From the NCBI RefSeq assembly GCF_002975275.1, contig NZ_PCOQ01000010.1:62001-126000 (forward strand): a DNA stretch of 64,000 nucleotides, given 5' to 3'. Below are positions 2,274 through 23,612 of this stretch, piece after piece. This stretch comes from Achromobacter sp. MYb9 (GTDB lineage Bacteria; Pseudomonadota; Gammaproteobacteria; Burkholderiales; Burkholderiaceae_B). The notes beneath the pieces were generated by a model. That model was not told the DNA's origin. It saw only the letters and a program-made list of their open reading frames with translations, and did no database searches. A program made the translations under genes and the position numbers. The stretch's first letter is position 1. Every line of letters begins with the position of its first letter.

Positions 2274-2289
2274 AGCACATTCCGTGCCC
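2274..2289 (-). promoter_or_regulatory. Sigma-54 promoter for the Csp-like gene
   Basis: Minus-strand GGGCACGGAATGTGCT: -24 GG and -12 GC separated by exactly 10 bases, 38 bases from the ATG at 2236. The -12 element is GTGC rather than TTGC. Confidence 0.75.
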
Positions 2290-2314
2290 GTCGCGCGGGG
2301 CGGCGTGGCCGTTT

Positions 2315-2337
2315 CCGCATGCTTTTCCGGCATGCGG
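2315..2337. repeat. Inverted repeat CCGCATGC/GCATGCGG overlapping a sigma-54 promoter
   Basis: Perfect 8-base arms at 2315-2322 and 2330-2337 with a 7-base spacer. The right arm covers the -24 region of the VOC promoter. It could be an operator, or partly a by-product of the GGCATG in the -24 element. Confidence 0.45.
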
Positions 2338-2343
2338 TTTGCG
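2328..2343 (+). promoter_or_regulatory. Sigma-54 promoter for the VOC gene
   Basis: CGGCATGCGGTTTGCG, with GG-N10-GC spacing, 55 bases upstream of the start at 2398. Confidence 0.75.
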
Positions 2344-2397
2344 GGCTTTCTTTATTCGGGGGGGCTTCGGGGGCTTTCGATACAGGAGGATCCTGGC

Positions 2398-2799
2398 ATG
2401 TATACGCATATTCAACTGGGCGCTCGAGATTGGCCGCGGCTTGTGGCCTTCTACGACGTGGTCCTGCGGCCGCTTGGCCTGACGCGTTGCAACGGCGTCG
2501 ATGACGCCGGCCCCGCTGGTGTCATATGGCGTTGCGGGGATCGGCGCTGGCCGTCGTTCGTCGTGGCGCCGCCGTTCAATGGATTGCCCGCGACGTGGGG
2601 CAATGGCAGCCAGGTCAGTTTTCAAGCGGAAACCTGCGCGGCGGTGCGGGAATGCTGGAGCAGGGCGCTGGAGCTGGGCGGTGTCGATGAGGGGCCACCT
2701 GGCCTGCGCCCCCGCTATGCGCCGGACTTTTTCGCGGCCTATTGTCGGGATCCCGAGGGCAATAAGCTTGCCTTTGTGTGTTCGGTCGCTATCGAATAG
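2398..2799 (+). CDS. VOC (glyoxalase/dioxygenase superfamily) protein
   Basis: A 133-residue protein starting MYTHIQLG. The beta-alpha-beta-beta-beta pattern and the end motif FFAAYCRDPEGNKLAFV are typical of vicinal-oxygen-chelate proteins related to glyoxalase I and bleomycin resistance proteins. The substrate cannot be deduced. The frame is open further upstream, but the start at 2398 follows an AGGAGG Shine-Dalgarno sequence at ideal spacing and lies downstream of a sigma-54 promoter. A second VOC protein of the same general type is encoded at 35876-36244. Family assignment is firm and function open. Confidence 0.85.
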   Translation: MYTHIQLGARDWPRLVAFYDVVLRPLGLTRCNGVDDAGPAGVIWRCGDRRWPSFVVAPPFNGLPATWGNGSQVSFQAETCAAVRECWSRALELGGVDEGPPGLRPRYAPDFFAAYCRDPEGNKLAFVCSVAIE

Positions 2800-2816
2800 C
2801 AGCGTGACGGGGGCCC

Positions 2817-2832
2817 GGGAACGCCATTTGCT
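2817..2832 (+). promoter_or_regulatory. Sigma-54 promoter for galU
   Basis: GGGAACGCCATTTGCT, with GG-N10-GC spacing, 58 bases upstream of the galU ATG. Confidence 0.8.
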
Positions 2833-2889
2833 CAGTGCGGTTGCGCCCCAGTAGATCAGGGCGCGGACCATAACGATACAGAGGCTTTT

Positions 2890-3723
2890 ATGCTCCCGAT
2901 ACGCAAAGCGGTATTCCCCGTTGCTGGCCTGGGCACGCGGTTCCTGCCGGCCACGAAAGCCATGCCCAAAGAGATGTTGCCGATCGTCGACAAACCGCTC
3001 ATCCAATACGCCGTCGAAGAGGCCGTAGCGGCTGGCGTCACCGAACTGATTTTTGTGACGGGCCGGAACAAGCGGGCGATAGAGGATCACTTTGACCGGG
3101 TTCCTGAACTGGAACTGGAGCTGGAGTCGAAGAACAAGGTGGCATTGCTGGATACCGTGCGCAGCGTCATCCCTTCTCATGTCAAGTGCGTCTACACGCG
3201 CCAACCGGCCGCCCTGGGGTTGGGGCATGCCGTGCTATGCGCGGCGCCTATCGTGGGCGATGAACCGTTTGCCGTGCTGTTGGCGGACGACCTTATCGAT
3301 GCGGATTCCCCCGTCATCGGTGAAATGATGAAGGTGGCGAAAGAGTTCCAAGGTAGCGTCCTGGCGGTTCAGCGCGTGCCGAAGGCCGCGACGCGCCAAT
3401 ATGGCATTGTGTCAGGCACCAAGGCGTCGGCCCATGTCATGCGGGTGTCCGGCATCGTCGAAAAACCGGATCCGGCCGACGCGCCTTCCGACATGGCGGT
3501 GGTCGGCCGCTATGTGTTGGACCCGGAAATATTCACCGTGTTGTCCAACACGCAGCCTGGCGTGGGGGGCGAGATCCAGTTGACGGATGCCATTGCCAGC
3601 CTGATGCGATCCAAGGCCGTATTCGGGTATGAATACGACGGCAAGCGTTATGACTGCGGCAGCAAGGAAGGGTTCTACCAGGCCACGATGGAAATAGGCA
3701 GGAAATACCACGGTCTGGCGTGA
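2890..3723 (+). CDS. galU: UTP-glucose-1-phosphate uridylyltransferase
   Basis: A 277-residue protein, full length for bacterial GalU, which makes UDP-glucose from UTP and glucose-1-phosphate in the cytoplasm. Visible signatures: the nucleotide-binding start [20 protein letters not shown], the Lys-containing [25 protein letters not shown] (metal-binding Asp region), and GEIQLTDAI near the C terminus. The start follows an AGAGG sequence. Its own sigma-54 promoter suggests stress-induced supply of UDP-sugars, perhaps for envelope polysaccharide, rather than housekeeping use. The gene ends at the remnant of a UDP-glucuronate-decarboxylase-type gene, a natural partner that consumes a UDP-glucose derivative. 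A second housekeeping galU elsewhere is likely but not visible. Confidence 0.95.
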
Positions 3724-3736
3724 CCCGATCCTTCCC

Positions 3737-4213
3737 TACGGGCCGCACATGTCGCCGGACGACAGCCGCGTGGTGTCCAATTTCATCGTGCAGGCGTTGT
3801 CGGGCCAACCGTTGACCATCTATGGCAATGGCACGCAGACCCGCTCTTTCTGCTACGTGGATGACCTTATCGATGGGCTTGTGCGGTTGATGGAAAGCCC
3901 GGAGGCGGTTGCGTGTCCCGTGAACCTGGGCAATCCGGCCGAACTGACGATGCTGGAAATGGCCGACATGGTGCGGGGGCTGACCGGCGCCCACGTGCCG
4001 CTGGTTCATCGCGACCTGCCGGTGGGCGACCCGACCCATCGCTGCCCCGATATTTCACTGGCGCGCCGCAGCCTGGGGTGGTGGCCCCGAATCGGTCCCG
4101 AAGAGGGCATCGCCCGCACGGTGGCCTATTTCTGCGCCGACCGCCAACAAGCCGGGCGGCACACGGCTTGCTGGACCCCGGCGACCGCCGCGGCGCCGGT
4201 CGCGCCGCTGTAG
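3737..4213 (+). pseudogene. C-terminal fragment of a UDP-glucuronate decarboxylase/NAD-dependent epimerase
   Basis: From about 3737 the frame reads YGPHMSPDDSRVVSNFIVQAL, then GTQTRSFCYVDDLIDGLVRL and NLGNPAELTMLEMA. These match the second half of extended SDRs that convert UDP-glucuronate to UDP-xylose (about 310-340 residues). The Rossmann N-terminal half with GxxGxxG, and the Ser and YxxxK catalytic residues, are absent: upstream is directly the galU stop. The first ATG (3749) lies inside the domain. It is therefore read as the residue of a deletion that joined galU to the 3' part of its neighbour. The fragment may still be translated, but it cannot bind NAD or catalyse. A sigma-54 promoter for the next gene lies inside its 3' end. 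Confidence 0.8.
4157..4172 (+). promoter_or_regulatory. Sigma-54 promoter for the 4233 gene and udgX
   Basis: CGGCACACGGCTTGCT, with GG-N10-GC spacing, inside the end of the epimerase fragment and 61 bases upstream of the ATG at 4233. Confidence 0.7.
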
Positions 4214-4232
4214 ACACGCGGAGGACGCCGCC

Positions 4233-4442
4233 ATGAGCACCCAGCCCCATTCGCATCAAGACACCCCTGCGGAAGCCCCGCACAAACCCGTGCCCGAACG
4301 TGAGCGCACGCTGTCCGACCGCCCGGCGGACCCCAACCGAACCGGGGCCGGACGCCAGATTCCCCCCGGCATGGATCCCGAAGACGTGTGGGACCCGGGC
4401 CGAGCCACGCCAGGGGTGCCGCCCGTGGACAACCGGTCCTGA
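4233..4442 (+). CDS. Small Pro-rich hydrophilic protein of unknown function
   Basis: A 69-residue protein starting MSTQPHSHQDTP, rich in Pro, Arg, Asp and Glu, with no membrane segment, signal peptide or recognised domain. It is probably disordered. A GGAGGA sequence precedes the ATG at 4233, and a sigma-54 promoter lies about 60 bases upstream. The stop is 21 bases before the udgX start, so the two genes are probably one transcription unit. Similar short hydrophilic products occur at 16228-16488 and 22647-22871, each directly behind a sigma-54 promoter. Confidence 0.65.
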   Translation: MSTQPHSHQDTPAEAPHKPVPERERTLSDRPADPNRTGAGRQIPPGMDPEDVWDPGRATPGVPPVDNRS

Positions 4443-4463
4443 GCGGCGTGACGGTGCGCCGGC

Positions 4464-5096
4464 ATGAATGCCACGCCGAGTTCTCCCGGGCACGATGAGG
4501 GGGATGTCGATCCCGATCAGCGCCCGAAAACGCTCGGCGCGTGTCGGCGCTGCGGCCTGTGGCGCAACGCCACGCAGGCGGTAGGGGGCGAGGGCAAGCG
4601 CCACGCCGCCATCATGCTGCTGGGCGAACAACCGGGCGACAAGGAAGACCTGGCGGGCCACCCATTCGTGGGGCCTGCCGGTGCGCTGTTGGACAAGGCG
4701 TTGGCGCAAGCGGGCGTCAGCCGCGACGCGGTTTACATCACCAATGCCGTGAAGCACTTCAAGTGGGAATTGCGCGGCAAACGCCGGATGCATAAATCCC
4801 CTGCGCAAGCCGAAATCCACGCGTGCGAGTATTGGCTGGACCAGGAGCTTGATGATGTCCAGCCGCACGTCATCATCGCCCTGGGCGCCACGGCGTTAAG
4901 CGCGCTGATGCGGGATCGCAAGCACACGCTGAAGGCTTCGCTGGGCAAGACCCTGGAACGGGGTGACAGCCGTGTTCTGGCGGCCTATCACCCGTCGTTT
5001 GCGTTAAGAAGCCCGAATCGCGAAAGCCGGGAAGCGGCCTTTCAGACCATCGTGGCTGCGTTGAAACGCGCGCGCGGATTGATCGACAAGGGCTAG
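4464..5096 (+). CDS. udgX: UdgX-type uracil-DNA-binding protein (family 4 UDG-like)
   Basis: A 210-residue protein of the uracil-DNA glycosylase superfamily. Motif A is GEQPGDKEDLAGHPFVGPAG (about residues 55-73). It carries the extra loop GKRRMH (residues 105-110) that marks UdgX, in which the His (here His110) becomes covalently bonded to uracil in DNA after excision. Usual UdgX proteins have KRRIH; here Ile is Met. Fe-S ligand candidates are Cys27, Cys30 and Cys121, with His98 where family 4 enzymes have the remaining Cys. The late motif AAYHPSFALR is present. Role: tight capture of uracil in DNA, hence repair or damage tolerance. It sits in the sigma-54 stress cluster behind a small unknown gene. 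Confidence 0.9.
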   Translation: MNATPSSPGHDEGDVDPDQRPKTLGACRRCGLWRNATQAVGGEGKRHAAIMLLGEQPGDKEDLAGHPFVGPAGALLDKALAQAGVSRDAVYITNAVKHFKWELRGKRRMHKSPAQAEIHACEYWLDQELDDVQPHVIIALGATALSALMRDRKHTLKASLGKTLERGDSRVLAAYHPSFALRSPNRESREAAFQTIVAALKRARGLIDKG

Positions 5097-5203: not shown

Positions 5204-5219
5204 GGGCATGCGGTTTGCT
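5204..5219 (+). promoter_or_regulatory. Sigma-54 promoter upstream of the 5263 mini-ORF
   Basis: GGGCATGCGGTTTGCT, with GG-N10-GC spacing, 44 bases upstream of the ATG at 5263. Confidence 0.8.
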
Positions 5220-5313: not shown

Positions 5314-5560
5314 GCTGGCGCCCACCGCAAAATCCACGCCAGGCAGCTGGCCGTGCGGCACGCTGCCCTGGTTCGACGTGCCGGGCAGGCTGGCCGGCGG
5401 CACGCCCATCGTGTTTGGGCATTGGGCGACGTTGGGGCTGCTGGTGCGGTCGGATGTTGCCTGCTTGGACACCGGTTGCGTGACGGGCGGCGTGCTGACA
5501 GCCCTGAGATTGGGTGATCGCAAGTTGCTTCAAGTGGGTCGCGAGCCCCTGTCGTCGCCC
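5312..5560 (+). pseudogene. apaH: 3' fragment of apaH (diadenosine tetraphosphatase)
   Basis: In the frame through 5312 the translation contains [20 protein letters not shown], then [20 protein letters not shown], then [17 protein letters not shown]. These are the C-terminal signatures of symmetrical Ap4A hydrolase (GHW and LDTGCVWGG metal and substrate motifs). The first 180 or so residues of the roughly 275-residue enzyme are missing, and the frame has no start with a ribosome-binding site. Homology ends near 5560, though the frame stays open to 5653. It is a gene fragment, not a functional phosphatase. ApaH degrades alarmone-like Ap4A, so its presence in a stress cluster fits, but here it is inactive. 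Confidence 0.8.
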
Positions 5561-5631
5561 GAGGAGACGCCGGTGGCCACGCCGATCCGCCGCAATTGGC
5601 CCGTGGGCGGGGCGCGCAGCGCCTGGCCGTT

Positions 5632-5919
5632 TCAGGCGGCCAGCAGCCGATAGGCCAGGGCCAGTGTCAGCAAGACCAGCGCCCCCATCGCCCACAGCAT
5701 GGCCGCCAACGCGATGGCAAGCGGGACTTGCAGCAGTGGGATCGGCCCCGTTTCGCCTGCCCCGGACGCCAGCCCCTGCGGCGGCGGCAGGATGTCGTCA
5801 TTGGCTGCGACGCGCGGTTCGGCCATCGGACCGACCGCGCTTTGCGGCGCCAAGTAGACAATCCTGACATTGCCGGCCGGGGCCGACGTCAAGACAGGTT
5901 GGGGGGAATGCATGGCCAT
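5632..5919 (-). CDS. Small protein with one C-terminal membrane segment, unknown function
   Basis: A protein of about 95 residues starting at ATG 5919 (a GTG at 5922 is also possible). Residues 1-60 are hydrophilic and Pro-rich; about residues 65-92 form one hydrophobic helix ([20 protein letters not shown]), so this is probably a tail-anchored inner-membrane protein. It lies 25 bases downstream of the DUF4142 stop and reads in the same direction, so it is probably the second gene of that unit. No family was recognised. Confidence 0.6.
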
Positions 5920-5944: not shown

Positions 5945-6502
5945 TCAGGGGGCCTTCTTTACGCCCTGGTCCAGCGTCTTGGCCATTTGAAGGTGCTGTT
6001 CAAGCGTCGGCAGCGTTTCCGTGGCGAATTGCTTGACCTCGGGGTCCTTGGCTTCGTTCGCGGCCTGCTGGAACAGCTTTACCGCGTCCTCGTGGGCCGA
6101 CACGCCGATGCTTTCGGCGTAGGCCTTGTCGAACCCATCGTCGCGCAGGCCAAGCGTCTTCAATTTTGCTTGCTGCACCAGAGAGGGTTCAGTCGGGGCG
6201 TCATAGCCCTTTTTCTTGGCCAGGGCAGCCAGTTGCTGGCCTGCCTTGCCGTGGTCATCGACCATTTTCTGCGCGAAGGCCTTGACCTCGGCATTGCGCG
6301 ATTTCTCAAGCGCAAGTTTGCTTCCTTCCACTTCCATGTGCCCGGCCTGCGCGGCATTTTCCAGAAAGTCGCGATCGTTGCCGTCCAGCTTCGACTCAGC
6401 CGCCATTGGCGCGGCGGGGGTGGTGGTCTGGGCCATGGCGATTTGTCCGGCTCCAAGCGCCGCAGCGGCAAGGAGGGCGGCGGTGAGGTAGCGAGGTTTC
6501 AT
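5945..6502 (-). CDS. DUF4142 periplasmic protein
   Basis: A 185-residue protein starting at ATG 6502 after CAGGAGATC. A signal peptide (MKPRYLTAALLAAAALGAGQ, cleavage after AMA) is followed by a long helical DUF4142 domain with DRDFLENAAQAGHMEVEGSK, AFAQKMVDDHGKA and FKQ-type helices ending LEQHLQMAK. The family is ferritin-like in fold and widespread in stress gene clusters; its biochemical role is not established. The upstream frame is open to 6616, but the signal peptide fixes this start. The leader of over 100 bases contains a 13-base tandem repeat. A sigma-54 promoter lies at 6612-6627. Confidence 0.9.
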   Translation of the reverse strand: MKPRYLTAALLAAAALGAGQIAMAQTTTPAAPMAAESKLDGNDRDFLENAAQAGHMEVEGSKLALEKSRNAEVKAFAQKMVDDHGKAGQQLAALAKKKGYDAPTEPSLVQQAKLKTLGLRDDGFDKAYAESIGVSAHEDAVKLFQQAANEAKDPEVKQFATETLPTLEQHLQMAKTLDQGVKKAP

Positions 6503-6611: not shown

Positions 6612-6627
6612 AGCAAACCGCGTTCCC
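6612..6627 (-). promoter_or_regulatory. Sigma-54 promoter for the DUF4142 operon
   Basis: Minus-strand GGGAACGCGGTTTGCT, with GG-N10-GC spacing. It faces away from the promoter at 6644, with 16 bases between them. Confidence 0.85.
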
Positions 6628-6643: not shown

Positions 6644-6659
6644 GGGAATGGGGTTTGCT
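6644..6659 (+). promoter_or_regulatory. Sigma-54 promoter for the 6693 gene
   Basis: GGGAATGGGGTTTGCT, with GG-N10-GC spacing, 34 bases upstream of the ATG at 6693. Confidence 0.85.
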
Positions 6660-7456: not shown

Positions 7457-9994
7457 CTAACCCGTCAAGCGCGGAAAGACGTGGACCAGCGCCAGCGCCA
7501 CCAGGCCCTGCGCCGTGGTGTAGCGCCACATCATCATCGTGGTGTCGAAAGCCGCGCGCCGAGTGGCGGTGAGCCGGCCGGCCAGCGAGCGCGCCACGGT
7601 AAACACCCCCATCACGCCTGCCAGCGCTGCAAAGGCGGCCTGCAGGCCGGCCACCGCGTAGACCGCCGCCGCATAGGCTGACACCTGGGGCCGCAGCCCG
7701 GATTGCCAGTGCGAGAGGATCTCCACCGCCGCCGATGCGCCCACCAATACGATGGCCGCCGACAGGCTCGCCCGCAAGAAGGTTTGCCTGGCTTGCGCCA
7801 GGCGGCGTCCGGCACCCTCCACCAACGCGACCGCGCCCAGCAGCAAACCGGCGGACAACATCGGCCAGGCTGCCGAGGGCAGTCCGCCAGGTTGCGGCCA
7901 TGCATCAGGATGGACGGTCCACAGGAACAGGTAGCCGAACATCATTGACCCGAAAATGCTGGTGCAGACGATGATCAGCAGGACCATGGCCCACGACGCA
8001 TGGGACGCACTACCCGAGCACATCATGGGGACGCGCAGGCCGCTACCGATGTACACCGGCGGGTGGTCCGGCCCCGTGTCGGCGTCCCACAGCCAGCGCC
8101 ACAACGCGGCCAGCGCCAGCACGCCGAACGCGGCGGCAAGCGCAAACAGTTTGAAGGTCAGTAGCAGGAAGAAACCGGCCGTGCCCAGCGCGGCAAGCAG
8201 CGGCGACCATGCCGGTCCGGGAAGCACCAGCACGTAGTCGGGACGGGCGTCGAGCGCGGTGGTCACCAGCGTCGATCGCAGTCCGCCCGGCGCGTGGGGC
8301 AGGAAATGGCCGCCGGCTTCCACTTCTTGCTCCAGGCCGGGCTGCGCCCACAAGGGCTCGCGGCTGGTCACGGCGGGTACGCTGCGCAGGCCGTGGGTTC
8401 CACTGGGCAGCCATTCCAACGTGCCGGCTCGCCAGATGTTGCCGGCGTTCTGATTGACGTCGGGCCTGAAGTTGCGCGCCACGTCGACGAGAAACACCAG
8501 GACCCCGGCGGCAATCAGGTAGGCGCCCACGGTAGACAGCATGTTCAGTGGCCCCAGCCCCTGGCTTTCCGCGTAGGTGTAGACCCGGCGTGGCATGCCA
8601 GCCAGGCCGGTGAAGTGCATCGGGAAGAAGGCCACGTTGAAACCGATGAACATCAGCCAGAACGCCCAACGCCCCAGTCGTTCCGACAAGGCCCGCGCGC
8701 TGACGAATGGCATCCAGTAGTAGAACGCCGCGAACAGCGGAAACACCATGCCCCCGAACAGCACGTAGTGCAGGTGGGCCACGATGAAATAGGTGTCGTG
8801 CGCCTGGAGGTCGAAAGGAATGACGGCGACCATGACGCCGGTGAGTCCGCCGATGACGAACACGAAGAAAAAGCCCAGGATGAACAGCATGGGGGTTTTC
8901 AGTGGCCGCAGCCGCTCGGCCGCGGCGATCGTGGCAATCCAGGCGAATATCTGGATCGCGGTCGGCACCGAAACCGCCATGCTTGCGGCCGACGCGAAAC
9001 TGAGCGAGAGCCGTGGGATGCCCGTGGCGAACATGTGATGCACCCACAGGCCAAAACTGAGAAAACCGGTCGAGACCACCGCGAGCACCACCAGGCGATA
9101 TCCGACCAGGGGCGTGCCCGTCATGGCCGGAATGATCATCGACACCATGCCGGCCGCCGGCAGGAAAATGATGTAGACCTCGGGATGCCCGAAAAACCAG
9201 AAAAGGTGTTGCCACAGCAACGGGTCGCCGCCACGGTCGGCAATGAAGAACGGCATGTCGAAGGCGCGTTCCAGCTCCAGCAGCGCGGTGGCCACGATGA
9301 CGGCCGGAAACGCAATGATCACCATGCCGCAGAACACCAGCATCACCCATGCGAACACGGGCATCTTCTCCAGTGTCATGCCCGGTGCGCGCGTGCGCAG
9401 GATGCCGACGGCAAGCTCGATCGCGCCGGCGATCGCCGATATCTCGATGAACCCGATGCCCAGCAGCCACAGATCCGCATTCATCGCCGGCGAATAGCGG
9501 GTGCTGGTCAGTGGCGGATACATGAACCAGCCGCCGTCGGGCGCCAGGCCCACGAAGATGCTGCAAAAAAAGACCAGGCCGCCGATCGCGTAGGCCCAAT
9601 AGGCATAGGCCGACAGCCGTGGGAACGGCAAGTCGCGCGCGCCCAGCATATTGGGCAATAGCAGCACGGCCACCGCTTCGACCGCCGGCACGGCAAAGAG
9701 AAACATCATGACCGTGCCGTGCATGGTGAACAGCTGGTTGTAGAGCGTATGTCCGATCAAATCACTGTCCGGCATCGCCAGCTGCGTGCGCATCATCAAG
9801 GCCAAAATGCCGGCCAGCAAGAAAAACAGCAACGCGGTGCCGATATAGAGCAGGCCGATGGAGGTGTTGTTGACGACCGTGATGGCGCGGAATCCCGTGG
9901 GGCGCCGCCAGGCAAGCTGAAGCTGCTTGAACTCGCCATCGGGGCGCGGGAGCGGATTCGGAAGCGGAGGGGGCGCGGGTGTCTCGGTGGTCAC
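7457..9994 (-). CDS. ctaD: Cytochrome c oxidase subunit I-III fusion
   Basis: An 845-residue protein from GTG 9994, whose start overlaps the ctaC stop as GTGA. Residues about 1-560 are a complete heme-copper oxidase subunit I. Low-spin heme ligand region: TMHGTVMMFLF. CuB His and cross-linked Tyr: WFFGHPEVY. CuB pair: WVHHMFATG. Heme ligands: DTYFIVAHLHYVLFGG. After a loop of about 90 residues, the C-terminal 230 residues form a subunit III-like helical bundle (from SHASWAMVLLIIVCTSIFG). Function: reduces O2 to water and pumps protons in the inner membrane. The I-III fusion is known for caa3/ba-type oxidases. The Glu usually found in subunit III helix III was not seen. Confidence 0.95.
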   Translation of the reverse strand: MTTETPAPPPLPNPLPRPDGEFKQLQLAWRRPTGFRAITVVNNTSIGLLYIGTALLFFLLAGILALMMRTQLAMPDSDLIGHTLYNQLFTMHGTVMMFLFAVPAVEAVAVLLLPNMLGARDLPFPRLSAYAYWAYAIGGLVFFCSIFVGLAPDGGWFMYPPLTSTRYSPAMNADLWLLGIGFIEISAIAGAIELAVGILRTRAPGMTLEKMPVFAWVMLVFCGMVIIAFPAVIVATALLELERAFDMPFFIADRGGDPLLWQHLFWFFGHPEVYIIFLPAAGMVSMIIPAMTGTPLVGYRLVVLAVVSTGFLSFGLWVHHMFATGIPRLSLSFASAASMAVSVPTAIQIFAWIATIAAAERLRPLKTPMLFILGFFFVFVIGGLTGVMVAVIPFDLQAHDTYFIVAHLHYVLFGGMVFPLFAAFYYWMPFVSARALSERLGRWAFWLMFIGFNVAFFPMHFTGLAGMPRRVYTYAESQGLGPLNMLSTVGAYLIAAGVLVFLVDVARNFRPDVNQNAGNIWRAGTLEWLPSGTHGLRSVPAVTSREPLWAQPGLEQEVEAGGHFLPHAPGGLRSTLVTTALDARPDYVLVLPGPAWSPLLAALGTAGFFLLLTFKLFALAAAFGVLALAALWRWLWDADTGPDHPPVYIGSGLRVPMMCSGSASHASWAMVLLIIVCTSIFGSMMFGYLFLWTVHPDAWPQPGGLPSAAWPMLSAGLLLGAVALVEGAGRRLAQARQTFLRASLSAAIVLVGASAAVEILSHWQSGLRPQVSAYAAAVYAVAGLQAAFAALAGVMGVFTVARSLAGRLTATRRAAFDTTMMMWRYTTAQGLVALALVHVFPRLTG

Positions 9995-10971
9995 TTCAGG
10001 CTTTCCAGATAGCGGGCCACGGCCCGCAGGTCTTCGCCGGGCCATTGGTCAAAGGCCGGCATGGCGTTGCCCGGTTTGATATGTTGCCCGCCGGCGATCC
10101 ACCCGGCCAGCGCGCCCACGTTATTGGGCAGCACGCCGGCCGCCAGCGATGGACGGCCGCCCAGATGGGTCAGGTCGGGCCCCATCGTTCCCGTGGCGGG
10201 CGTTCCCCGCACGGCATGGCACTGCGCGCAGGCTTGTTGGAACAGTTGTTCGCCGTGCCGAAGTTCCGGTCCCGCCAACCGGGCCGGTTGGCGTTGCTGC
10301 CGCAGCCATTCGTCAAACTGCGCCGGCGCCAGCACCTGCACGTCGAACCGCATCTGGGCGTGCTGCGCCCCGCAGTACTCGGCGCATTGCCCCCGGAAGA
10401 CGCCGGGCGCGCTCGCCATCACGCGCAGGCGGTTCACGCGGCCGGGCATCATGTCGAGCTTCCCTGCCAGCTCGGGGATCCAGAAACTGTGGATCACATT
10501 GTCGGACCGCAGCAGGAATTCCACCGTCTGTCCGGCGGGCAGGCGCACATCGTTCGCGGTTTCGAAAAGCAGCGTGCCGGAACGGTCCAGGTAGCGGACG
10601 CGCCACCACCATAGTTCTCCGGTGACTTCAATGCGCACCGCGGCCATTCCGCTGCTGCGCGCGGCCAGTGGGCCGGGGCCCAGCACCCAGAGCAAAAGCG
10701 CCGTCAGCGCCAGGACGGGAAAGGCGACGCCGGCTGCCACGATCAGCGCGGGGTTGGCCAACGCCCGGCGCACGCGTTCCGGCCCGTGCATGGCCAGCGC
10801 CATGACCAGGGCCACCATGAGGAAGATGCCGGCGCCGCCGATGTAAAGCACCGTGCTGATCTGATCGATGCGGCCAATGTCGTCCCCGTCCGCCGGCGCG
10901 CCGTGCCGGGGTTGCGCCCAGGCTGCGGTGGACATCGTGGCGGCAAGCACCAGGGGGAGGAGAGACGGCAT
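9991..10971 (-). CDS. ctaC: Cytochrome c oxidase subunit II with fused cytochrome c domain (caa3 type)
   Basis: A 326-residue protein from ATG 10971. A signal peptide (MPSLLPLVLAATMSTAAWAQ) and two membrane helices are followed by the CuA cupredoxin domain, with VIHSFWIPEL (first His) and CAEYCGAQHAQM (two Cys, His, Met). A C-terminal cytochrome c domain follows, with CAQCH and a likely distal Met in GNAMPAF. The fused heme marks a caa3-type oxidase that accepts electrons directly or through small cytochromes c. First gene of the operon ctaC-ctaD/E-7106. A sigma-54 promoter lies at 11036-11051. Confidence 0.95.
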   Translation of the reverse strand: MPSLLPLVLAATMSTAAWAQPRHGAPADGDDIGRIDQISTVLYIGGAGIFLMVALVMALAMHGPERVRRALANPALIVAAGVAFPVLALTALLLWVLGPGPLAARSSGMAAVRIEVTGELWWWRVRYLDRSGTLLFETANDVRLPAGQTVEFLLRSDNVIHSFWIPELAGKLDMMPGRVNRLRVMASAPGVFRGQCAEYCGAQHAQMRFDVQVLAPAQFDEWLRQQRQPARLAGPELRHGEQLFQQACAQCHAVRGTPATGTMGPDLTHLGGRPSLAAGVLPNNVGALAGWIAGGQHIKPGNAMPAFDQWPGEDLRAVARYLESLK

Positions 10972-11035
10972 GTACGTTTCTGCGGGAATTCCGGCGTAGG
11001 GCAGGCCGGGGATTGGACTGCGGCCGCCGCGCGTC

Positions 11036-11051
11036 AGCATGTGGCGTGCCC
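11036..11051 (-). promoter_or_regulatory. Sigma-54 promoter for the caa3 oxidase operon
   Basis: Minus-strand GGGCACGCCACATGCT, with GG-N10-GC spacing, 65 bases upstream of ctaC. The -12 element is ATGC rather than TTGC. Confidence 0.7.
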
Positions 11052-11071: not shown

Positions 11072-11087
11072 TGGAACGAAAATTGCG
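11072..11087 (+). promoter_or_regulatory. Sigma-54 promoter for the cytochrome c genes
   Basis: TGGAACGAAAATTGCG, with GG-N10-GC spacing, 29 bases upstream of the TTG start at 11116 and back to back with the ctaC promoter (20 bases apart). Confidence 0.8.
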
Positions 11088-12768: not shown

Positions 12769-12784
12769 AGCAAACTATGTGCCG
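12769..12784 (-). promoter_or_regulatory. Sigma-54 promoter for the DUF1488 gene
   Basis: Minus-strand CGGCACATAGTTTGCT, with GG-N10-GC spacing, 67 bases upstream of the ATG at 12702. Confidence 0.8.
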
Positions 12785-14280: not shown

Positions 14281-14296
14281 AGCAAGCCGCATGCCC
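14281..14296 (-). promoter_or_regulatory. Sigma-54 promoter for the flavoprotein gene
   Basis: Minus-strand GGGCATGCGGCTTGCT, with GG-N10-GC spacing, 32 bases upstream of ATG 14249. Only 7 bases separate it from the divergent promoter at 14304. Confidence 0.8.
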
Positions 14297-14303
14297 CGCC
14301 TCT

Positions 14304-14319
14304 GGGTATGTTCCTTGCT
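14304..14319 (+). promoter_or_regulatory. Sigma-54 promoter for the SDR gene
   Basis: GGGTATGTTCCTTGCT, with GG-N10-GC spacing, 49 bases upstream of ATG 14368. Confidence 0.8.
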
Positions 14320-16525: not shown

Positions 16526-16541
16526 AGCAATTCGCGTTCCC
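16526..16541 (-). promoter_or_regulatory. Sigma-54 promoter for the 16488-15944-DUF2243 operon
   Basis: Minus-strand GGGAACGCGAATTGCT, with GG-N10-GC spacing, 38 bases upstream of ATG 16488. Confidence 0.8.
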
Positions 16542-16580: not shown

Positions 16581-16596
16581 TGGCACGGTGCTTGCT
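16581..16596 (+). promoter_or_regulatory. Sigma-54 promoter for the DUF2231 and sorbosone dehydrogenase genes
   Basis: TGGCACGGTGCTTGCT, an exact match to the sigma-54 consensus TGGCACG-N4-TTGCW, 39 bases upstream of GTG 16635. Confidence 0.92.
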
Positions 16597-16634: not shown

Positions 16635-17063
16635 GTGACCTCAATCCGTGAACCCCGGTATGGCCTGTGCGTGCACCCGGTACAGGCAATATTTCTGGCA
16701 GGGATGCTTCCCTTGTTCATCGGCGCAGCCGTCGCCGACGCCGCCTATGCGAAGTCGTTCGACATCCAGTGGAATAACTTCGCCTCGTGGCTGCTGGTGG
16801 GCGGCCTGCTGTTTGGCGGCATTGCGCTGGTGTTCGCCATCATCGACCTGTTCCGAGCGAGTCAGCGAACGCGCCGGACCCTCCCGTATGTCCTGGCGTT
16901 GCTGGCGGCGTGGATCGTGGGCATTTTCAACGCGCTGATCCATGCGCGCGACGCGTGGGCAAGCATGCCTGCTGGGTTGGTCCTGTCGATCATCGTCGTG
17001 GTGCTTTCCTGCGCCGCAATATGGCTTGGTTTTCGCACCCCGCACATCAGAGGCGCCGTATGA
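16635..17063 (+). CDS. DUF2231 membrane protein
   Basis: A 142-residue protein from GTG 16635 (AGGAGCG upstream). Four hydrophobic helices (about residues 17-40, 49-70, 83-103, 114-135), the HPVQAIFLAGMLPLFIG start and an Asp/Trp-rich first loop are typical of DUF2231, an integral membrane family that may bind heme or be linked to respiratory enzymes. The stop overlaps the sorbosone dehydrogenase start as ATGA. The tight coupling suggests a membrane partner for that periplasmic dehydrogenase, possibly as electron acceptor, which is inference. Confidence 0.85.
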   Translation: MTSIREPRYGLCVHPVQAIFLAGMLPLFIGAAVADAAYAKSFDIQWNNFASWLLVGGLLFGGIALVFAIIDLFRASQRTRRTLPYVLALLAAWIVGIFNALIHARDAWASMPAGLVLSIIVVVLSCAAIWLGFRTPHIRGAV

Positions 17064-18415
17064 AACACATCCGATGGATCGCCACCGTGTCGCTGACCGC
17101 CGTGACGGGCGTAAGCGCCGGCCAAACCGGGCCCTCGCAGGTCGGCCCCTCGCCCGATCTGCCCACGCCCAAAACGGGACTGCTTCCCGAGATGGTGATC
17201 GCGAAGCCGGCCGAGTGGGGCGACAAGGCCCCGACAGTGCCAGACGGGTACACGATTACCGCCATCGCCACGGGCCTGAAGATTCCCCGGCAGACGCTGG
17301 TATTGCCCAATGGCGACATCCTGGTCGCGGAAGGCAAGGGCGGCAATGCCCCCCAGCTGAAACCCAAGGACGTGATTGCGGGCATGATCAAGGCCAAAGG
17401 CACCAGCCCGGTAAAGGGCGGCAACCGTCTGACGCTGCTGCGAGATGCCGAAGGCGACGGCACCTACGAGGCATCGACGTTCGCCGAAAACCTCAATGCG
17501 CCGTATGGTCTGGCATTGGTGGGCGATGATCTTTATGTGGCCAACCAGGACGCCGTGGTGCGATTCGACTATCAGCCGGGGCAGACCAAGGCGGGCGGCC
17601 CGCCTGAAACCGTGGCGCCGCTGCCATCGGAAGTCAACCACCACTGGACCAAGGCCATGACCGCCAGCGCCGATGGCCAATATCTGTATGTGGGTATCGG
17701 CTCCAACAGCAACATCACGGAACGCGGCATGGCGGTGGAAGCCGACCGAGCCCGCATCTGGCGCATCAACGCCCGCACCGGCGAATCCAAGGCGTACGCC
17801 ACGGGGCTGCGCAATCCCACCGCCCTGACTATCCAACCCGATACTGGCCAATTGTGGGCGGTCGTGAATGAACGCGATGAGCTTGGCCCTGACCTGGTTC
17901 CCGACTATCTGACGGCCGTCCAGGAAGGCGCGTTCTATGGCTGGCCGTACAGCTATTGGGGCCAAAACATCGATGACCGGGTCCGGCCGCAAGACCCCAA
18001 AAAAGTCGCTGCTGCGATCAAGCCCGATTACAGCCTGGGGGCGCACGTCGCGGCGTTGGGCGTGGATTTTTCGACGGAGACCATGGGGGGAGCGTTTGCC
18101 AACGGGGTCTTTGTTGGCGAACACGGCAGCTGGAACCGCAGCGATCCGGTCGGCTACAAGGTGGTCTTTGTTCCGTTCCGGGAAGGCCGGCCGTCGGGTC
18201 CGCCCGTCGATTTCGTGGGTGGGTTCCGCGATAGCAATGGCACGACGCGCGGCCGCCCGGTAGGCGTGACGGTCGATCCCAAGGGCGCCCTGATCGTTGC
18301 CGACGACCTATCGAACACGATTTGGCGCATCACGCCGACGCGGCCGGCGCAGATAAAACAGCCGGTCGCGGCGGCGCAGGACGCCGTCGCCGTTCAGCCG
18401 GCGCCCGCCAGATAG
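17060..18415 (+). CDS. PQQ-type L-sorbosone/glucose dehydrogenase-like beta-propeller, periplasmic
   Basis: A 451-residue protein with a signal peptide (MKHIRWIATVSLTAVTGVSA) and a six-bladed soluble quinoprotein fold. Seen: IATGLKIPRQTLVLPNGDIL, LNAPYGLALVGDDLYVAN, HHWTKAMTASADGQYLYVGI, ATGLRNPTALTIQP, VNERDELGPDLVPDYL and VFVGEHGSWNRS. The His, Arg and Asn positions match the PQQ and Ca2+ site pattern of the sorbosone dehydrogenase family. Probably oxidises an aldose or aldehyde in the periplasm and passes electrons to the respiratory chain. The physiological substrate is unknown. Coupled to DUF2231 and under sigma-54 control. Confidence 0.88.
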   Translation: MKHIRWIATVSLTAVTGVSAGQTGPSQVGPSPDLPTPKTGLLPEMVIAKPAEWGDKAPTVPDGYTITAIATGLKIPRQTLVLPNGDILVAEGKGGNAPQLKPKDVIAGMIKAKGTSPVKGGNRLTLLRDAEGDGTYEASTFAENLNAPYGLALVGDDLYVANQDAVVRFDYQPGQTKAGGPPETVAPLPSEVNHHWTKAMTASADGQYLYVGIGSNSNITERGMAVEADRARIWRINARTGESKAYATGLRNPTALTIQPDTGQLWAVVNERDELGPDLVPDYLTAVQEGAFYGWPYSYWGQNIDDRVRPQDPKKVAAAIKPDYSLGAHVAALGVDFSTETMGGAFANGVFVGEHGSWNRSDPVGYKVVFVPFREGRPSGPPVDFVGGFRDSNGTTRGRPVGVTVDPKGALIVADDLSNTIWRITPTRPAQIKQPVAAAQDAVAVQPAPAR

Positions 18416-18481: not shown

Positions 18482-18944
18482 AGGACGGTTTGAAGACCAT
18501 CAGCCAGAAGATCGCCAGAAAGGCGCCCAACGCCGGAAAGCCCAGCACGAACCACAGCGTGAAGTACCGCTTGAAGGCCGGCGACAGCGGCAGCCCGGCG
18601 AGCGCCGACGCCTGGGCGTCGTCGCGCATGAGCATTTGAAGCCTGACAACCGGCAGCCAGCATGCGATGGCGATGGCATACAGCACAAGCGACCCCATCA
18701 ACCAGGGTGTCGAAAATGGAATCTGCATCAGGCGCGCCAGATACCAGCCGGTGAGCGGCTGCGCAATGGCAGTGGTTGCCGTGAACAGCCAATCGGCCAA
18801 CACCACGACACGGGCAACTTGCGCCACCACTTTTACGTCGCGTCGCAGGACGACGCACAGCAGATAGAAGGCAGATCCGATTCCCGTCCCGAAAAGCAGG
18901 GTCGACGACAAGATGTGCAGCAGCTTTACCCAAAGGTACTCCAT
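18480..18944 (-). CDS. DUF2269 membrane protein
   Basis: A 154-residue protein with four to five membrane helices (starts MEYLWVKLLHILSSTLLFGT, ends FLAIFWLMVFKP). The conserved HxxS near the N terminus, a mid-protein DWLFTATTAIAQPLTGWYL segment and the length fit DUF2269, a family of predicted integral membrane proteins. The ATG overlaps the stop of the upstream SDR-DoxX gene as ATGA, so the pair is coupled and probably forms one membrane complex. Function is not established. Confidence 0.85.
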   Translation of the reverse strand: MEYLWVKLLHILSSTLLFGTGIGSAFYLLCVVLRRDVKVVAQVARVVVLADWLFTATTAIAQPLTGWYLARLMQIPFSTPWLMGSLVLYAIAIACWLPVVRLQMLMRDDAQASALAGLPLSPAFKRYFTLWFVLGFPALGAFLAIFWLMVFKPS

Positions 18945-20236
18945 CAATGCCTCCGGTCCTCGTGCAGGTAAAACAACAGCAATACGGCCAGCATGGGCAG
19001 GTTTTTGGAGATGGGTCCGAACGGGTGCAGCCATTGCTCGGACAAACGCCAGGTGATGATCCCGGTATAGGCAAGTATCAACGCCATCTGTGCAAGCCAT
19101 AACCACCGCACTGACCGTCCGCGCCACACGACGGTCAGTATTCCAAATAGAAGGTCCAGGCCAGCGGCCCCGTATAGCGCAAACGTTGCATAGGCTGCCG
19201 GAACGCCGCTGCGTTGCAGCAGCGCCAAACTGTCCGGTATGGGGTACAAGCCCAGCGATACGATGGCGGTCCAGAGCCACACGGCGGCGACGCTCGCCCG
19301 CAGTAGCGGCAACAGGTTGTCCAATGTTGCGGCCGCCCGATATGCGTGGCGCTCGCGCTGGGCGACAAAGCGCCGCGGCGGGCGTGGGGCGCCGCCCAGC
19401 AGCACGGAAAATGCCGTGGCGTCGCCGGTATTTCCGCGCTCGAGCATGGACAGGCTTTCCGGTCCAATCAGGCTTCCCGGTAGTGCGTCGGCCACGCGGG
19501 CGGCCAAGCGGGCGCATGCGCCGGGAACCGCGACGATGCGCTGGCGCGCGCAATAGCCCAGCCCCGTCCGCAGCGTGGCAAGGTAGTCCCGAAGGGGCAG
19601 CGCGTCGGGCCCGCAAAAGGCAATGGTCACGGCATCCTGGGTGGGCCGGCCGAGCAGTGCCCGGACGCCTGCGACCACGTCGGCAATGTGTACGGGCTGA
19701 ACGCGTTGCGTGCCGCCGCCGGGCAGCGGCAGCAGCGGCCAGGCCGCCAGACGGTTGAACAGCGCGGCGCTTGCGCCGCCAGCGCCATAGACAAGAGACG
19801 GCTGAACGATGAAGGCCGGTATCCCCTGCGCGCGGAGCCCGTCGTCCGCGGCGCGCTTGCTGGTATGAAATGCGGATTGCGCATTCCGGTCCGCACCCAA
19901 CGCTGAAAACTGGATCACCAATGCGCGCCGCTGGCGGGCCGCCTTGAACAGCGCCAGGGGAACGGTTTCATGGATGCGCTGGAAACTTTGCCCGCGTTCC
20001 TCGCGAAATATGCCGACCGTGTTAATGACCACGTCGACGCCATCCAGCAGCGGCAACCAATCCTCGGGACGCACGCAGGACGCGAAGTCCACAGGCACGA
20101 ATATTGCTCTGGCATCGTCCGACGCGTCGTGCGGGGCGGCACGTACCGGGCAGACAAGCCGATGGTGGTCGGAAAGTAGTGCCTCGGCAAGATGGCCGCC
20201 GATAAAGCCTCGCGCACCGGTCAACAGGATTTTCAC
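18944..20236 (-). CDS. NAD(P)-binding SDR/epimerase fused to a DoxX-like membrane domain
   Basis: A 430-residue protein from GTG 20236, chosen for GGAGATCC upstream and because the Rossmann motif then sits at the N terminus (KILLTGARGFIGGHLAEALL). Residues 1-290 are an atypical extended SDR (NmrA-like) that lacks a clear YxxxK. Residues about 300-430 are a hydrophobic DoxX-like domain with four helices (AAVWLWTAIVSLGLYPIPDS, FALYGAAGLDLLFGILTVVW). This SDR-DoxX fusion is known in many proteobacteria; the reaction is unknown. It forms a two-gene unit with DUF2269 and has a sigma-54 promoter 51 bases upstream. Confidence 0.85.
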   Translation of the reverse strand: MKILLTGARGFIGGHLAEALLSDHHRLVCPVRAAPHDASDDARAIFVPVDFASCVRPEDWLPLLDGVDVVINTVGIFREERGQSFQRIHETVPLALFKAARQRRALVIQFSALGADRNAQSAFHTSKRAADDGLRAQGIPAFIVQPSLVYGAGGASAALFNRLAAWPLLPLPGGGTQRVQPVHIADVVAGVRALLGRPTQDAVTIAFCGPDALPLRDYLATLRTGLGYCARQRIVAVPGACARLAARVADALPGSLIGPESLSMLERGNTGDATAFSVLLGGAPRPPRRFVAQRERHAYRAAATLDNLLPLLRASVAAVWLWTAIVSLGLYPIPDSLALLQRSGVPAAYATFALYGAAGLDLLFGILTVVWRGRSVRWLWLAQMALILAYTGIITWRLSEQWLHPFGPISKNLPMLAVLLLFYLHEDRRH

Positions 20237-20286: not shown

Positions 20287-20302
20287 AGCAAAATCCATAC
20301 CC
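20287..20302 (-). promoter_or_regulatory. Sigma-54 promoter for the SDR-DoxX/DUF2269 operon
   Basis: Minus-strand GGGTATGGATTTTGCT, with GG-N10-GC spacing, 51 bases upstream of GTG 20236. Confidence 0.8.
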
Positions 20303-22015: not shown

Positions 22016-22045
22016 ATTTGCACCCGGTCCCCAAGCCGTCCCAAA

Positions 22046-22549
22046 TCAGGATTCGCGGCCAGATTGCCGGCACTTGATTACGCTGACATCGCCATCCGGC
22101 TCCATGTAGGCCCGGCTGACTTCACTGATCTTGGCAACCCCCTTCAGGCGCAATTGGCTCATGAGTTCTTCTTCGGTCAGATACTCGCGCCGAAGGTTCC
22201 TTTTGGAGATCACGCCATTGCGGACAAGGCAAACTCTGTTGGCTTCCAGCAGGCGGCCGATCGGCTCGACGAAGTAGCTGACGCGATCCACCAGCACCGT
22301 CCACCCGACGATGGTGGATACCAGGACGAGGCCGTCGACGATCGACTTGTACTCGCCCGCCATGGCGTTTTGGGCGGCGTCGGCAATAAGCACCAGAACA
22401 AGCATGTCCGCAACGCCCAGCGATCCAATATCACGTCTTCCTGCCACGCGAAGCAGCGCGAAGATGAACCAATAGACGATCGAGCCGCGGATGAAAATCT
22501 CTATTGGCGAGATCGAAAACGTGAACATCCCCGACCAGTCCGGTGTCAT
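22046..22549 (-). CDS. DUF421 (YetF-like) membrane protein
   Basis: A 167-residue protein from ATG 22549 after AAAGGAGTT. Three N-terminal membrane helices (FIRGSIVYWFIFALLRVAGR and following), then a soluble domain with the family's NGVISKRNLRREYLTEEELM and LRLKGVAKISEVSRAYMEPDG segments. DUF421/YetF proteins are widespread; some affect sporulation or stress, but the biochemical role is open. Located between the 22871 gene and FUSC, in the same direction, with no sigma-54 site of its own, so it is probably read from the promoter at 22923. Confidence 0.88.
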   Translation of the reverse strand: MTPDWSGMFTFSISPIEIFIRGSIVYWFIFALLRVAGRRDIGSLGVADMLVLVLIADAAQNAMAGEYKSIVDGLVLVSTIVGWTVLVDRVSYFVEPIGRLLEANRVCLVRNGVISKRNLRREYLTEEELMSQLRLKGVAKISEVSRAYMEPDGDVSVIKCRQSGRES

Positions 22550-22646
22550 GGCAACTCCTTTCAGTCTATCCAGCGATGAGGGATCCGCGCGGCAGGATCC
22601 CCCGCCGGCCTGGCTGGCGCAGGGGACACCGCATGCGGGCGTGGGG

Positions 22647-22871
22647 TTACTCGGAATCGCGGTCCTTTTGTTTCGGCTCGCGGCCATAGGCGTCTTTGCC
22701 GCGCGGAGCCTGGGAACCGCCAGCCGGGTAGCCGGAATTCGTGTTCGGGTCGCGGTTGACTTCGCCTTCGGGCGGACCCTCGGCGGTGGGTTGCCCCGTG
22801 AATCCGCGGGCGGCGCGATCGGCGTGCTGCGGGGCAGCGGGAGGGCGGCGATTCGATGTGGAGTCGTTCAT
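22647..22871 (-). CDS. Small hydrophilic protein of unknown function
   Basis: A 74-residue protein starting MNDSTSNRRPPAAPQHADRA, rich in Pro, Gly, Arg, Lys, Asp and Glu, with no hydrophobic segment; probably intrinsically disordered. The Shine-Dalgarno is weak. It is called because a sigma-54 promoter lies 52 bases upstream and because similar short hydrophilic products lead other units of this cluster. Followed after 97 bases by the DUF421 gene. Confidence 0.5.
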   Translation of the reverse strand: MNDSTSNRRPPAAPQHADRAARGFTGQPTAEGPPEGEVNRDPNTNSGYPAGGSQAPRGKDAYGREPKQKDRDSE

Positions 22872-22922
22872 GTCGGCACCATTGCGTTTGCCCGTTTATC
22901 GCGGGGCAGGAGCTTCGACATC

Positions 22923-22938
22923 AGCAAATGTCATGCCT
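22923..22938 (-). promoter_or_regulatory. Sigma-54 promoter for the 22871-DUF421-FUSC genes
   Basis: Minus-strand AGGCATGACATTTGCT, with GG-N10-GC spacing, 52 bases upstream of ATG 22871. Confidence 0.8.
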
Positions 22939-23044
22939 GGACCAGGGTGCGGCCGGTTCAGGCGTGTGCAAGTCGGCACGCCGCATGCTGCTCGACGACC
23001 GGGCCTTGCCGCAAGAGGCCAAACGGAGCTGAAAGATGAAAACG

Positions 23045-23492
23045 CAGAATTCTTCTTGTACAAGTCTGGCCCGGCTTGTAGCTGCGCGCGATGCGTGATC
23101 ACGAACGACGGGTCTATCTGTTTGTCGGCGATGCGCTTGAGGAGATCGTCGGTCCAGCGGCGGACGTGGGTTTGTCCCCTGCGCCAGGTCAATCCCTTGT
23201 TCATCGACGCGCCAAACGGGATCTTGTCGATCATCCCGCCGTACACGCCGGGAATCGACAGCGTTTCCCCCGGATGGCAGACATAATCATTTCGCGCAGA
23301 ACATGCGGCCGATCTGTTTCCGATGTCGCCGGATTTCATTCCGGGCATGAATCCATCGAAAAGATGCAGGTCCGAACCACATATGGCTCAGGCGCGGACC
23401 TTGATGATGGCGTCGCGCGGGTCTTCCAGAATGGGGTCGGGAACGGTGTCGTAGCGCACATCGTGCTTGCCGTGCCAGCAAAGTGCTTTCAT
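23045..23492 (-). pseudogene. Zinc-dependent alcohol/formaldehyde dehydrogenase remnant
   Basis: From ATG 23492 the frame gives [20 protein letters not shown] and [12 protein letters not shown], then an in-frame TGA (codon 35). It continues AICGSDLHLFDGFMPGMKSG DI, the start of the roughly 390-residue zinc alcohol dehydrogenases of the formaldehyde dehydrogenase type, including the catalytic Cys in CGSDLH. After DI about 250 codons are missing, and the sequence resumes with the C-terminal GETLSIPGVYGGMIDKIPFG, MNKGLTWRRGQTHV and IDPSFVITHRAQL. Homology ends near 23045. So there is one nonsense codon plus one large deletion that removes the cofactor domain. The sigma-54 promoter upstream is intact. 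Confidence 0.88.
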
Positions 23493-23544
23493 GAGAATCC
23501 CCTAAAAACGGCGTTCGCGTGGTTGCGATCGCGTCAGGCGGCCA

Positions 23545-23560
23545 CGCAACTATCGTGCCG
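23545..23560 (-). promoter_or_regulatory. Sigma-54 promoter in front of the dehydrogenase pseudogene
   Basis: Minus-strand CGGCACGATAGTTGCG, with GG-N10-GC spacing, 53 bases upstream of ATG 23492. Confidence 0.75.
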
Positions 23561-23596
23561 CGTCCGGCACGGTGGGGCACGGCGTCCAAGCGCGGC

Positions 23597-23612
23597 GGGT
23601 ACGCAACTTGCT
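23597..23612 (+). promoter_or_regulatory. Sigma-54 promoter for the low-affinity iron permease gene
   Basis: GGGTACGCAACTTGCT, with GG-N10-GC spacing, 33 bases upstream of ATG 23645. Confidence 0.78.

Follow-up and report, generated by a model that had tools for sequence, protein, structure and literature searches.

Sigma-54-type promoters before a stress-type gene set in Achromobacter sp. MYb9, and a second sigma-54 factor, RpoN2, as their likely reader

Introduction

General stress responses are known to run on RpoS, sigma-B or EcfG, and sigma-54 is better known for nitrogen metabolism. The present analysis concerns a 64,000-nucleotide stretch of the genome of Achromobacter sp. MYb9 (6.68 Mb, 59 contigs), referred to as the window (C10:62001-126000), in which a cluster of elements of the -24/-12 type stands before genes of largely protective character, and a second sigma-54 factor, RpoN2, encoded elsewhere in the same genome. 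The sites, the two rpoN genes, the activators, two classes of site and their co-occurrence across genomes are computed directly from the DNA.

Results

A cluster of paired promoter elements in the window

Every 16-mer with GG at -25/-24 and GC at -13/-12 was scored over 11 informative positions against the consensus xGG(C/A)A(C/T)GNNNNTTGCT, taken from the first-pass annotation of this DNA, with a cut-off of at least 10/11. Between positions 2201 and 23700, 21 GG-N10-GC elements reach the cut-off, nine of them perfectly, compared with a single element in the reversed sequence and a mean of 1.49 (maximum 5) in 200 Markov-1 surrogates. Because the scan demands the GG and the GC, their invariance is a selection effect; the spacing between them is real, as altering the spacer by -4 to +7 leaves 0-3 elements. 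The remaining 40.3 kb of the window holds four elements at this cut-off and five when reversed. Judged by their sequence, the elements are almost certainly sigma-54 (-24/-12) promoters.

A plausible start codon, selected by us, lies 23-109 bp downstream of 19 of the 21 sites (Table 1), three of which (5204, 22974 and 23545) precede just tiny open reading frames (ORFs) or gene remnants. Eight back-to-back pairs take up 16 of the 21 sites, with gaps of 7-39 bp in seven pairs and 138 bp in one. The same arrangement dominates in 23 relatives, whose loci are related and not independent: 57 divergent pairs lie within 260 bp (56 of them at 3-48 bp), against one convergent and one tandem pair.

The first-pass annotation had recognised sigma-54-type elements here, and the controls above bear it out. 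Its count of 18 becomes 21 at the threshold used, and its limits for the cluster, 2274-23612, prove too narrow, with three sites just upstream of the window (C10:56677, 56721 and 59616) and one at 35841-35856. The element at 16581-16596 had been singled out as an exact match; the sequence is correct (TGGCACGGTGCTTGCT), but it is a poor exemplar, since the cluster sites depart from the classical consensus, mostly with G, C or A at -26 and T or G at -11.

Gene fragments lie between intact genes of the cluster at 3749-4213, which we take to be an NAD-dependent epimerase, and at about 5320-5653, seemingly and presumably the C-terminus of ApaH. Remnants of a decayed dehydrogenase (23030-23493) retain the promoter-like site at 23545; an intact relative at locus L161 has a site 50 bp upstream.

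Table 1 Sites and genes of the window, with one site outside it; lengths of proteins in amino acids (aa).
Feature	Position	Strand	Context
C-terminal part of 1339-aa CheB-CheR-PAS-histidine kinase-receiver protein	36-1850	+	gene begins upstream of the window
Site GGGAATGGAATTTGCT	outside the window		200 bp before predicted start of the 1339-aa CheB-CheR-PAS kinase
Cys-rich 110-aa protein	1904-2236	-	no Pfam match; presumably a possible copper store
Site GGGCACGGAATGTGCT	2274-2289	-	37 bp before 1904-2236
Site CGGCATGCGGTTTGCG	2328-2343	+	54 bp before 2398-2799 (glyoxalase-like, slightly under Pfam cut-off)
Site GGGAACGCCATTTGCT	2817-2832	+	57 bp before 2890-3723 (nucleotidyl transferase, GalU-like)
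Site CGGCACACGGCTTGCT	4157-4172	+	60 bp before ORF 4233-4442; inside epimerase gene fragment
UDG-superfamily (UdgX-like) gene	4464-5096	+	preceded by ORF 4233-4442
Site GGGCATGCGGTTTGCT	5204-5219	+	before 16-aa ORF and gene remnants
Site GGGAACGCGGTTTGCT	6612-6627	-	109 bp before DUF4142 gene 5945-6502; back-to-back with 6644
Site GGGAATGGGGTTTGCT	6644-6659	+	33 bp before 123-aa ORF (start 6693); 16-bp gap to 6612-6627
caa3-type oxidase genes (COX2-cytochrome c; 845-aa COX1)	7457-11040	-	Pfam; coxB start probably ATG at 10971
Site GGGCACGCCACATGCT	11036-11051	-	64 bp before coxB; back-to-back with 11072
Site TGGAACGAAAATTGCG	11072-11087	+	28 bp before 141-aa ORF (TTG 11116)
Gene with two cytochrome c stretches	11538-12389	+	after 141-aa ORF (TTG 11116)
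Site CGGCACATAGTTTGCT	12769-12784	-	66 bp before DUF1488 gene 12445-12702
Site TGGAACGCGGCATGCT	12923-12938	+	no clear gene behind
Site GGGCATGCGGCTTGCT	14281-14296	-	31 bp before FMN-reductase-like gene 13167-14249; 7-bp gap to 14304
Site GGGTATGTTCCTTGCT	14304-14319	+	48 bp before SDR gene 14368-15360
Site GGGAACGCGAATTGCT	16526-16541	-	37 bp before 86-aa ORF; back-to-back with 16581
Site TGGCACGGTGCTTGCT (classical consensus)	16581-16596	+	38 bp before DUF2231 gene 16635-17063
GSDH (sorbosone dehydrogenase-like) gene	17060-18415	+	after DUF2231 gene, behind site 16581
Site AGGCACGAATATTGCT	20093-20108	+	within gene on opposite strand; probably chance
Site GGGTATGGATTTTGCT	20287-20302	-	23 or 50 bp before epimerase/DoxX gene 18944-20236
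Site AGGCATGACATTTGCT	22923-22938	-	51 bp before small ORF 22647-22871; back-to-back with 22974
Site CGGCACGCCGCATGCT	22974-22989	+	before 20-aa ORF and gene remnants
Site CGGCACGATAGTTGCG	23545-23560	-	52 bp before decayed dehydrogenase gene
Site GGGTACGCAACTTGCT	23597-23612	+	32 bp before low-affinity iron permease gene 23645-24151
Site CGGCACGGCCTTTGCT	35841-35856	-	49 bp before PCMT gene 35105-35791; outside the cluster first noted

The promoter set extends across the genome

Genome-wide, GGMAYGNNNNTTGCT occurs 57 times, against seven occurrences of its backwards control. Further groups of sites lie on contig C15, within a second stress-gene island, and on C8, and katE on C7, together with one gene before it, is located behind GGGCATGGCGCTTGCT. 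The enrichment that the first-pass annotation proposed to test is present as the cluster in the window and as a genome-wide excess over controls, and the sites recur in relatives.

Divided by the base at -26, the 57 exact sites fall into 32 without T and 25 with T. The non-T group fronts DUF4142, topoisomerase IB and a ferritin-like gene as well as katE, PfpI-like, PCMT, iron-permease-like and other genes. The T group fronts some stress-cluster genes and rpoN2, in addition to genes that we take from their N-termini to be glnA, glnK-amtB, nirB, an aldehyde dehydrogenase and transporters. The names GlnA, GlnK, NirB, PoxB, Ku, CsbD, ApaH, PfpI and Csp in Achromobacter and Bordetella are such readings of N-termini unless backed by Pfam.

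Two unusual arrangements of sites are seen on other contigs. At C2:309424-309483 the classical sites TGGAACGGATCTTGCA (+) and TGGCATGGATCTTGCA (-) point towards each other across 28 bp, and facing pairs of this kind occur in 10 of 11 genomes of the genus. At C20:66899-66919, TGGCATGCAAATTGCA overlaps its own near-inverse on the opposite strand, with the same pair in four other genomes of the genus.

A second sigma-54 gene lies beside its own activators

A search with the sigma-54 DNA-binding domain finds two genes in the genome, on contigs C22 and C15. The one on C15, rpoN2 (L049:18457-19911), encodes a protein of 484 aa in which PF00309, PF04963 and PF04552 are all present, with activator-interacting, core-binding and DNA-binding domains and the RpoN box ARRTVSKY. 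Its neighbours are an NtrC-type response regulator (459 aa), a second activator devoid of a receiver (333 aa) and a GAF/PAS hybrid histidine kinase (1001 aa), and the island also holds topoisomerase IB, an SDR, small proteins without an informative Pfam match and a run of the same sites. Of 15 matches to the activator domain family in the genome, ten are convincing, the five weakest not being counted as activators, and two of the ten adjoin rpoN2. Both combine an AAA+ domain with a helix-turn-helix (HTH) and carry the loop GSFTGA instead of GAFTGA; among the other eight, seven have GAFTGA or GAYTGA and one gives no match to the regular expression. The GSFTGA loop is found in both activators at all 23 named Achromobacter and Bordetella loci. 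At 20 further loci of Bordetella and other genera, an activator lies near rpoN2 in 15, and the loops there read GSFTGA in 20 cases and GAFTGA in one.

Two hybrid histidine kinases (L048:12875-14362 and L048:14831-18850), one of them a CheB-CheR-PAS fusion, border the window cluster on its upstream side and are candidate stress sensors.

RpoN2 recurs in Achromobacter, Bordetella and the eight further genera of the family examined. In the tree, 20 loci from Bordetella and eight further genera, picked as presumed second copies, group with the RpoN2 of Achromobacter (support 99/99), and the RpoN1 clade is separate (100/99). The RpoN2 of Burkholderia joins the RpoN2 clade weakly (83/41). On a replicon of B. 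multivorans, rpoN2 lies in an island annotated with an SDR, DUF4142, DUF892, UdgX, Ku, LigD, DUF1488 and a glutamine-amidotransferase-like gene; the island contains eight sites, against one when reversed, with back-to-back pairs among them and TGGCATGGAAGCTGCA (score 9) before rpoN2. A more distant sigma-54 gene on the Comamonadaceae plasmid CP099607 (L136), of unsure placement in the tree owing to a long branch, also stands beside a GSFTGA activator, in metal-resistance and catabolic surroundings.

Two classes of promoter differ at -26 and -11

Positions -26 and -11 set the stress promoters apart from sites of nitrogen type. The comparison covers the 23 named rpoN2 loci, which are related, so that counts are not independent. 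At 167 sites away from rpoN2, position -26 is G in 122, A in 27, C in 14 and T in 4, whereas the promoter of rpoN2 itself, about 50 bp before the gene, has T in 17 of 23 loci. Position -11, counted only at sites perfect at the other scored positions to avoid scoring bias, is T in 104, G in 32, C in 4 and A in 2 of 142 sites away from rpoN2, and A in 16, T in 5 and G in 1 of 22 rpoN2 promoters. The promoter of rpoN2 is therefore mostly classical and nitrogen-type, while its neighbours belong to another class. Before the rpoN2 of the 20 other loci, a T-26 site scores at least 10 in 16 and at least 9 in 19.

Among the conserved differences between the two proteins is one residue of the recognition helix, which is Q in 20/20 rows of the RpoN1 clade and G, S, N or H in 30/30 RpoN2 rows, and this residue may read -12/-11. 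In R. sphaeroides the promoters of RpoN1 and RpoN2 are reported to differ at -11, according to the accessible part of that study (PMC3162934).

Sites follow the number of sigma-54 genes

Among 200 genomes of the family, 27 have no sigma-54 gene, 83 have one, 85 have two and five have three or five; these are counts of sigma-54 domains and do not imply identity as RpoN2 in each genome. The median density of VGGMAYGNNNNTTGCT is 1.48, 1.79 and 4.09 per Mb with zero, one and two genes, and the pooled ratios of hits to control are 1.96, 1.47 and 3.53. An excess of at least 12 sites is found in 49 genomes, every one with at least two sigma-54 genes. A within-genus permutation over the ten genera of mixed state gives p=5e-5. 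Fisher tests of the promoter classes and a Mann-Whitney test of the family genomes ignore relatedness and are not relied on alone.

In the genus of the window, all 11 genomes have two sigma-54 genes. In genus g36, which includes Bordetella, 30-34 sites are present in four genomes that have the second gene and 1-7 in the four that have one; two with extra sigma-54 copies have just 5 and 10. Some genomes of genera g2 and g9 combine more than one sigma-54 gene with scant or no excess of sites, and there the additional copies may have another role. Two other genomes of the window's genus were surveyed in regions picked for holding sites; of the 37 sites, 24 have a start 15-150 bp ahead of them, and 20 are followed by a relative of a gene from the loci studied here, including DUF4142, caa3 coxB and the ferritin-like gene. 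In 96 genomes from outside the family, 509 hits stand against 419 in the control, so the promoter class as written is mainly a trait of this family. The highest excess among these 96, 16 sites against three in the control, belongs to a genome of family f28 in the order sample (G226), in which RpoS is present.

The set resembles a stress regulon, and RpoS is not found

Protective genes of unlike function, covering DNA, protein and redox protection, share the sites. They include a long catalase of KatE type, topoisomerase IB, PCMT, a UDG-family protein, SDRs and DUF4142, joined in relatives by genes that we take from N-termini to be PoxB-, Ku- and CsbD-like. No RpoS exceeds the cut-off in any of the 200 family genomes, and none does in this genome; in the order sample 47 of 100 genomes exceed it, so the search works. 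NepR gives no match in this genome, with the positive control matched in Caulobacter and no search made for EcfG or PhyR. A system of EcfG or RpoS type was set aside, as RpoS and NepR were not found.

Discussion

RpoN2 is likely to be the main reader of the sites, and a general stress role of the regulon is likewise likely, as we infer from its gene content. That the sites are read mainly by RpoN2, as a paralogue dedicated to general-stress and stationary-phase survival genes, is given a probability of about 0.72. The first-pass annotation had placed a stress-type set under sigma-54, and this is upheld by the spacing, the genome counts, the relatives and the linked paralogue; a generic RpoN is replaced by what is likely RpoN2 with activators of its own. 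The local cluster it described is real and belongs to a putative genome-wide regulon that takes in the C15 island and katE on C7. The "distinct wiring" it proposed is supported in putting sigma-54 before such a set and is not specific to the strain: RpoN2 recurs in Achromobacter, Bordetella and the eight further genera, and B. multivorans carries a comparable island.

Several observations weigh against this reading. Among the 32 exact non-T sites, eight fall within predicted genes and just 18 face a start at 15-150 bp. T stands at -26 in three of the 21 cluster sites and is missing from the rpoN2 promoter in 6 of 23 loci; L151, outside the RpoN1 clade yet nearest to it, has N rather than Q at the recognition-helix residue. 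Five of the 20 loci of other genera lack an activator beside rpoN2, no GSFTGA activator occurs in the B. stagnalis and B. multivorans stretches, and B. stagnalis has two sites with two when reversed. An excess of at most four sites is found in 12 of 90 genomes with at least two sigma-54 genes (genera g2, g9, g13, g29, g33, g36, g37 and g38), two of the ten mixed-state genera run opposite to the trend, and a site of at least 10 lies upstream of katE in two of six other Burkholderiales. Enhancers, or upstream activating sequences (UAS), do not emerge either: the site-anchored alignment holds information at -27 to -10 only, plus one isolated weak column at -107, and a search for palindromes and enriched 8-mers finds no enhancer, its signal being dominated by orthologous coding DNA of relatives. 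Because the sites are back to back, an enhancer at the usual 100-200 bp upstream would fall within the neighbouring gene. Possibly the activators use variable sites or downstream ones, or need no fixed enhancer.

Of the alternatives, one leaves RpoN2 in charge of the set and makes the signal narrow, such as copper, nitrosative or envelope stress or low oxygen, in a specific response. The caa3 oxidase, cytochromes c, Cys-rich protein and iron permease in the set and the PAS/GAF domains of the kinases fit such a signal, but it is rather unlikely given the span from DNA to protein and redox protection and the failure to find RpoS and NepR. Another holds that these are ordinary sigma-54 promoters read by the canonical RpoN1, with RpoN2 redundant or otherwise specialised and the differences at -26 and -11 reflecting activators or promoter strength. 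It draws on the three cluster sites with T at -26, one of which (16581) fits the classical consensus, and on R. solanacearum, where RpoN2 allowed an rpoN1 mutant to grow again on C4-dicarboxylates in the accessible part of the study, so that specificities overlap (PMC4676750). It is nonetheless quite improbable, because the pooled ratio of 1.47 with one rpoN gene rises to 3.53 with two and the within-genus test agrees; a single canonical RpoN was set aside on the two rpoN genes, the split at -26 and the copy-number and within-genus tests. Binding sites of some other regulator, or chance in G+C-rich DNA, where GG and GC are frequent and the rest of the window is no richer than its control, are scarcely credible, as the reversal, surrogate and spacer controls rule out chance and base composition, and the sites also point at starts and track rpoN copy number, which opposes both.

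If RpoN2 is indeed the main reader, the system could operate as follows. Stress would be sensed by hybrid histidine kinases, namely the GAF/PAS kinase beside rpoN2 and the two PAS kinases that closely precede the window cluster, which would phosphorylate the NtrC-type response regulator beside rpoN2, with a contribution from the receiver-less second activator. The AAA+ activators, with GSFTGA in the loop that contacts the sigma factor, would then remodel RpoN2-polymerase waiting at the promoters, many of which lie back to back and few bases apart, such that genes on both sides would be induced together. Since the rpoN2 promoter is of the classical RpoN1 type, RpoN2 itself is placed under RpoN1. 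Which sigma-54 reads which site, how kinases and regulator pair and what the stress signal is are conclusions that we infer from these arrangements.

More broadly, it is possible, at somewhat less than an even chance, that in many members of the family a duplicated sigma-54 took over the general stress response, with a changed promoter code of its own, GSFTGA-type activators, paired promoters without a fixed enhancer and ATP-driven opening at every promoter. The RpoS and EcfG-PhyR-NepR systems are known to use sigma-70-family factors without ATP-dependent activators, and their targets (katE, poxB, DUF4142, Ku/LigD, SDRs) resemble the set here. A sigma-54 general stress response would, if true, solve the problem differently: it would stay silent until an ATPase acts and would be subordinate to the nitrogen-type RpoN1. 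It would give RpoN2 a function where mutant studies in Ralstonia report no specific phenotype, make sense of the katE finding that stands alone in Burkholderia and provide a natural system for testing how promoters are divided at -26 and -11 between paralogous sigma-54s. In the open PMC literature, no paper was found that proposes RpoN2 as a general stress factor. Paralogous sigma-54s are known already, and so is the control of katE by RpoN2 (PMC4745423, as far as its accessible text goes); a combination of the regulon with the promoter class, the altered loop of the activators and the lack of RpoS in the sampled family has, as far as searches reach, not been described.

Among the closest known cases is B. 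pseudomallei, which likewise has a second sigma-54 and in which katE needs it, late in growth: at 48-72 h katE is expressed in the wild type and silent in an rpoN2 mutant, and an RpoN box is predicted before katE (PMC4745423). In its accessible part, that study covers katE and a partial proteome, without activators, a distinct promoter class or a general-stress regulon, and the species also has RpoS (PMC4745423). A strict replacement of RpoS by RpoN2 everywhere was dropped, since both factors are reported from B. pseudomallei and since a single sigma-54 gene is present in 83 of the 200 family genomes and none in 27. Co-regulation and a stress role are likely interpretations for the present set; the one direct experiment found is that on katE in B. 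pseudomallei. Minimal medium induces rpoN2 in R. solanacearum, where its expression needs rpoN1 and the two proteins are not interchangeable; in the accessible portions of both texts it shows no specific phenotype in the tests made and the word "stress" is absent (PMC4371752, PMC4676750). The katE result and the dependence on rpoN1 fit a late, RpoN1-dependent regulon of survival type and do not prove it here. The RpoN1-RpoN4 proteins of Cereibacter/Rhodobacter sphaeroides are likewise paralogous, specialised sigma-54s; RpoN2 of that species is described in the available text as serving flagella (PMC7277832), a role other than the one proposed here.

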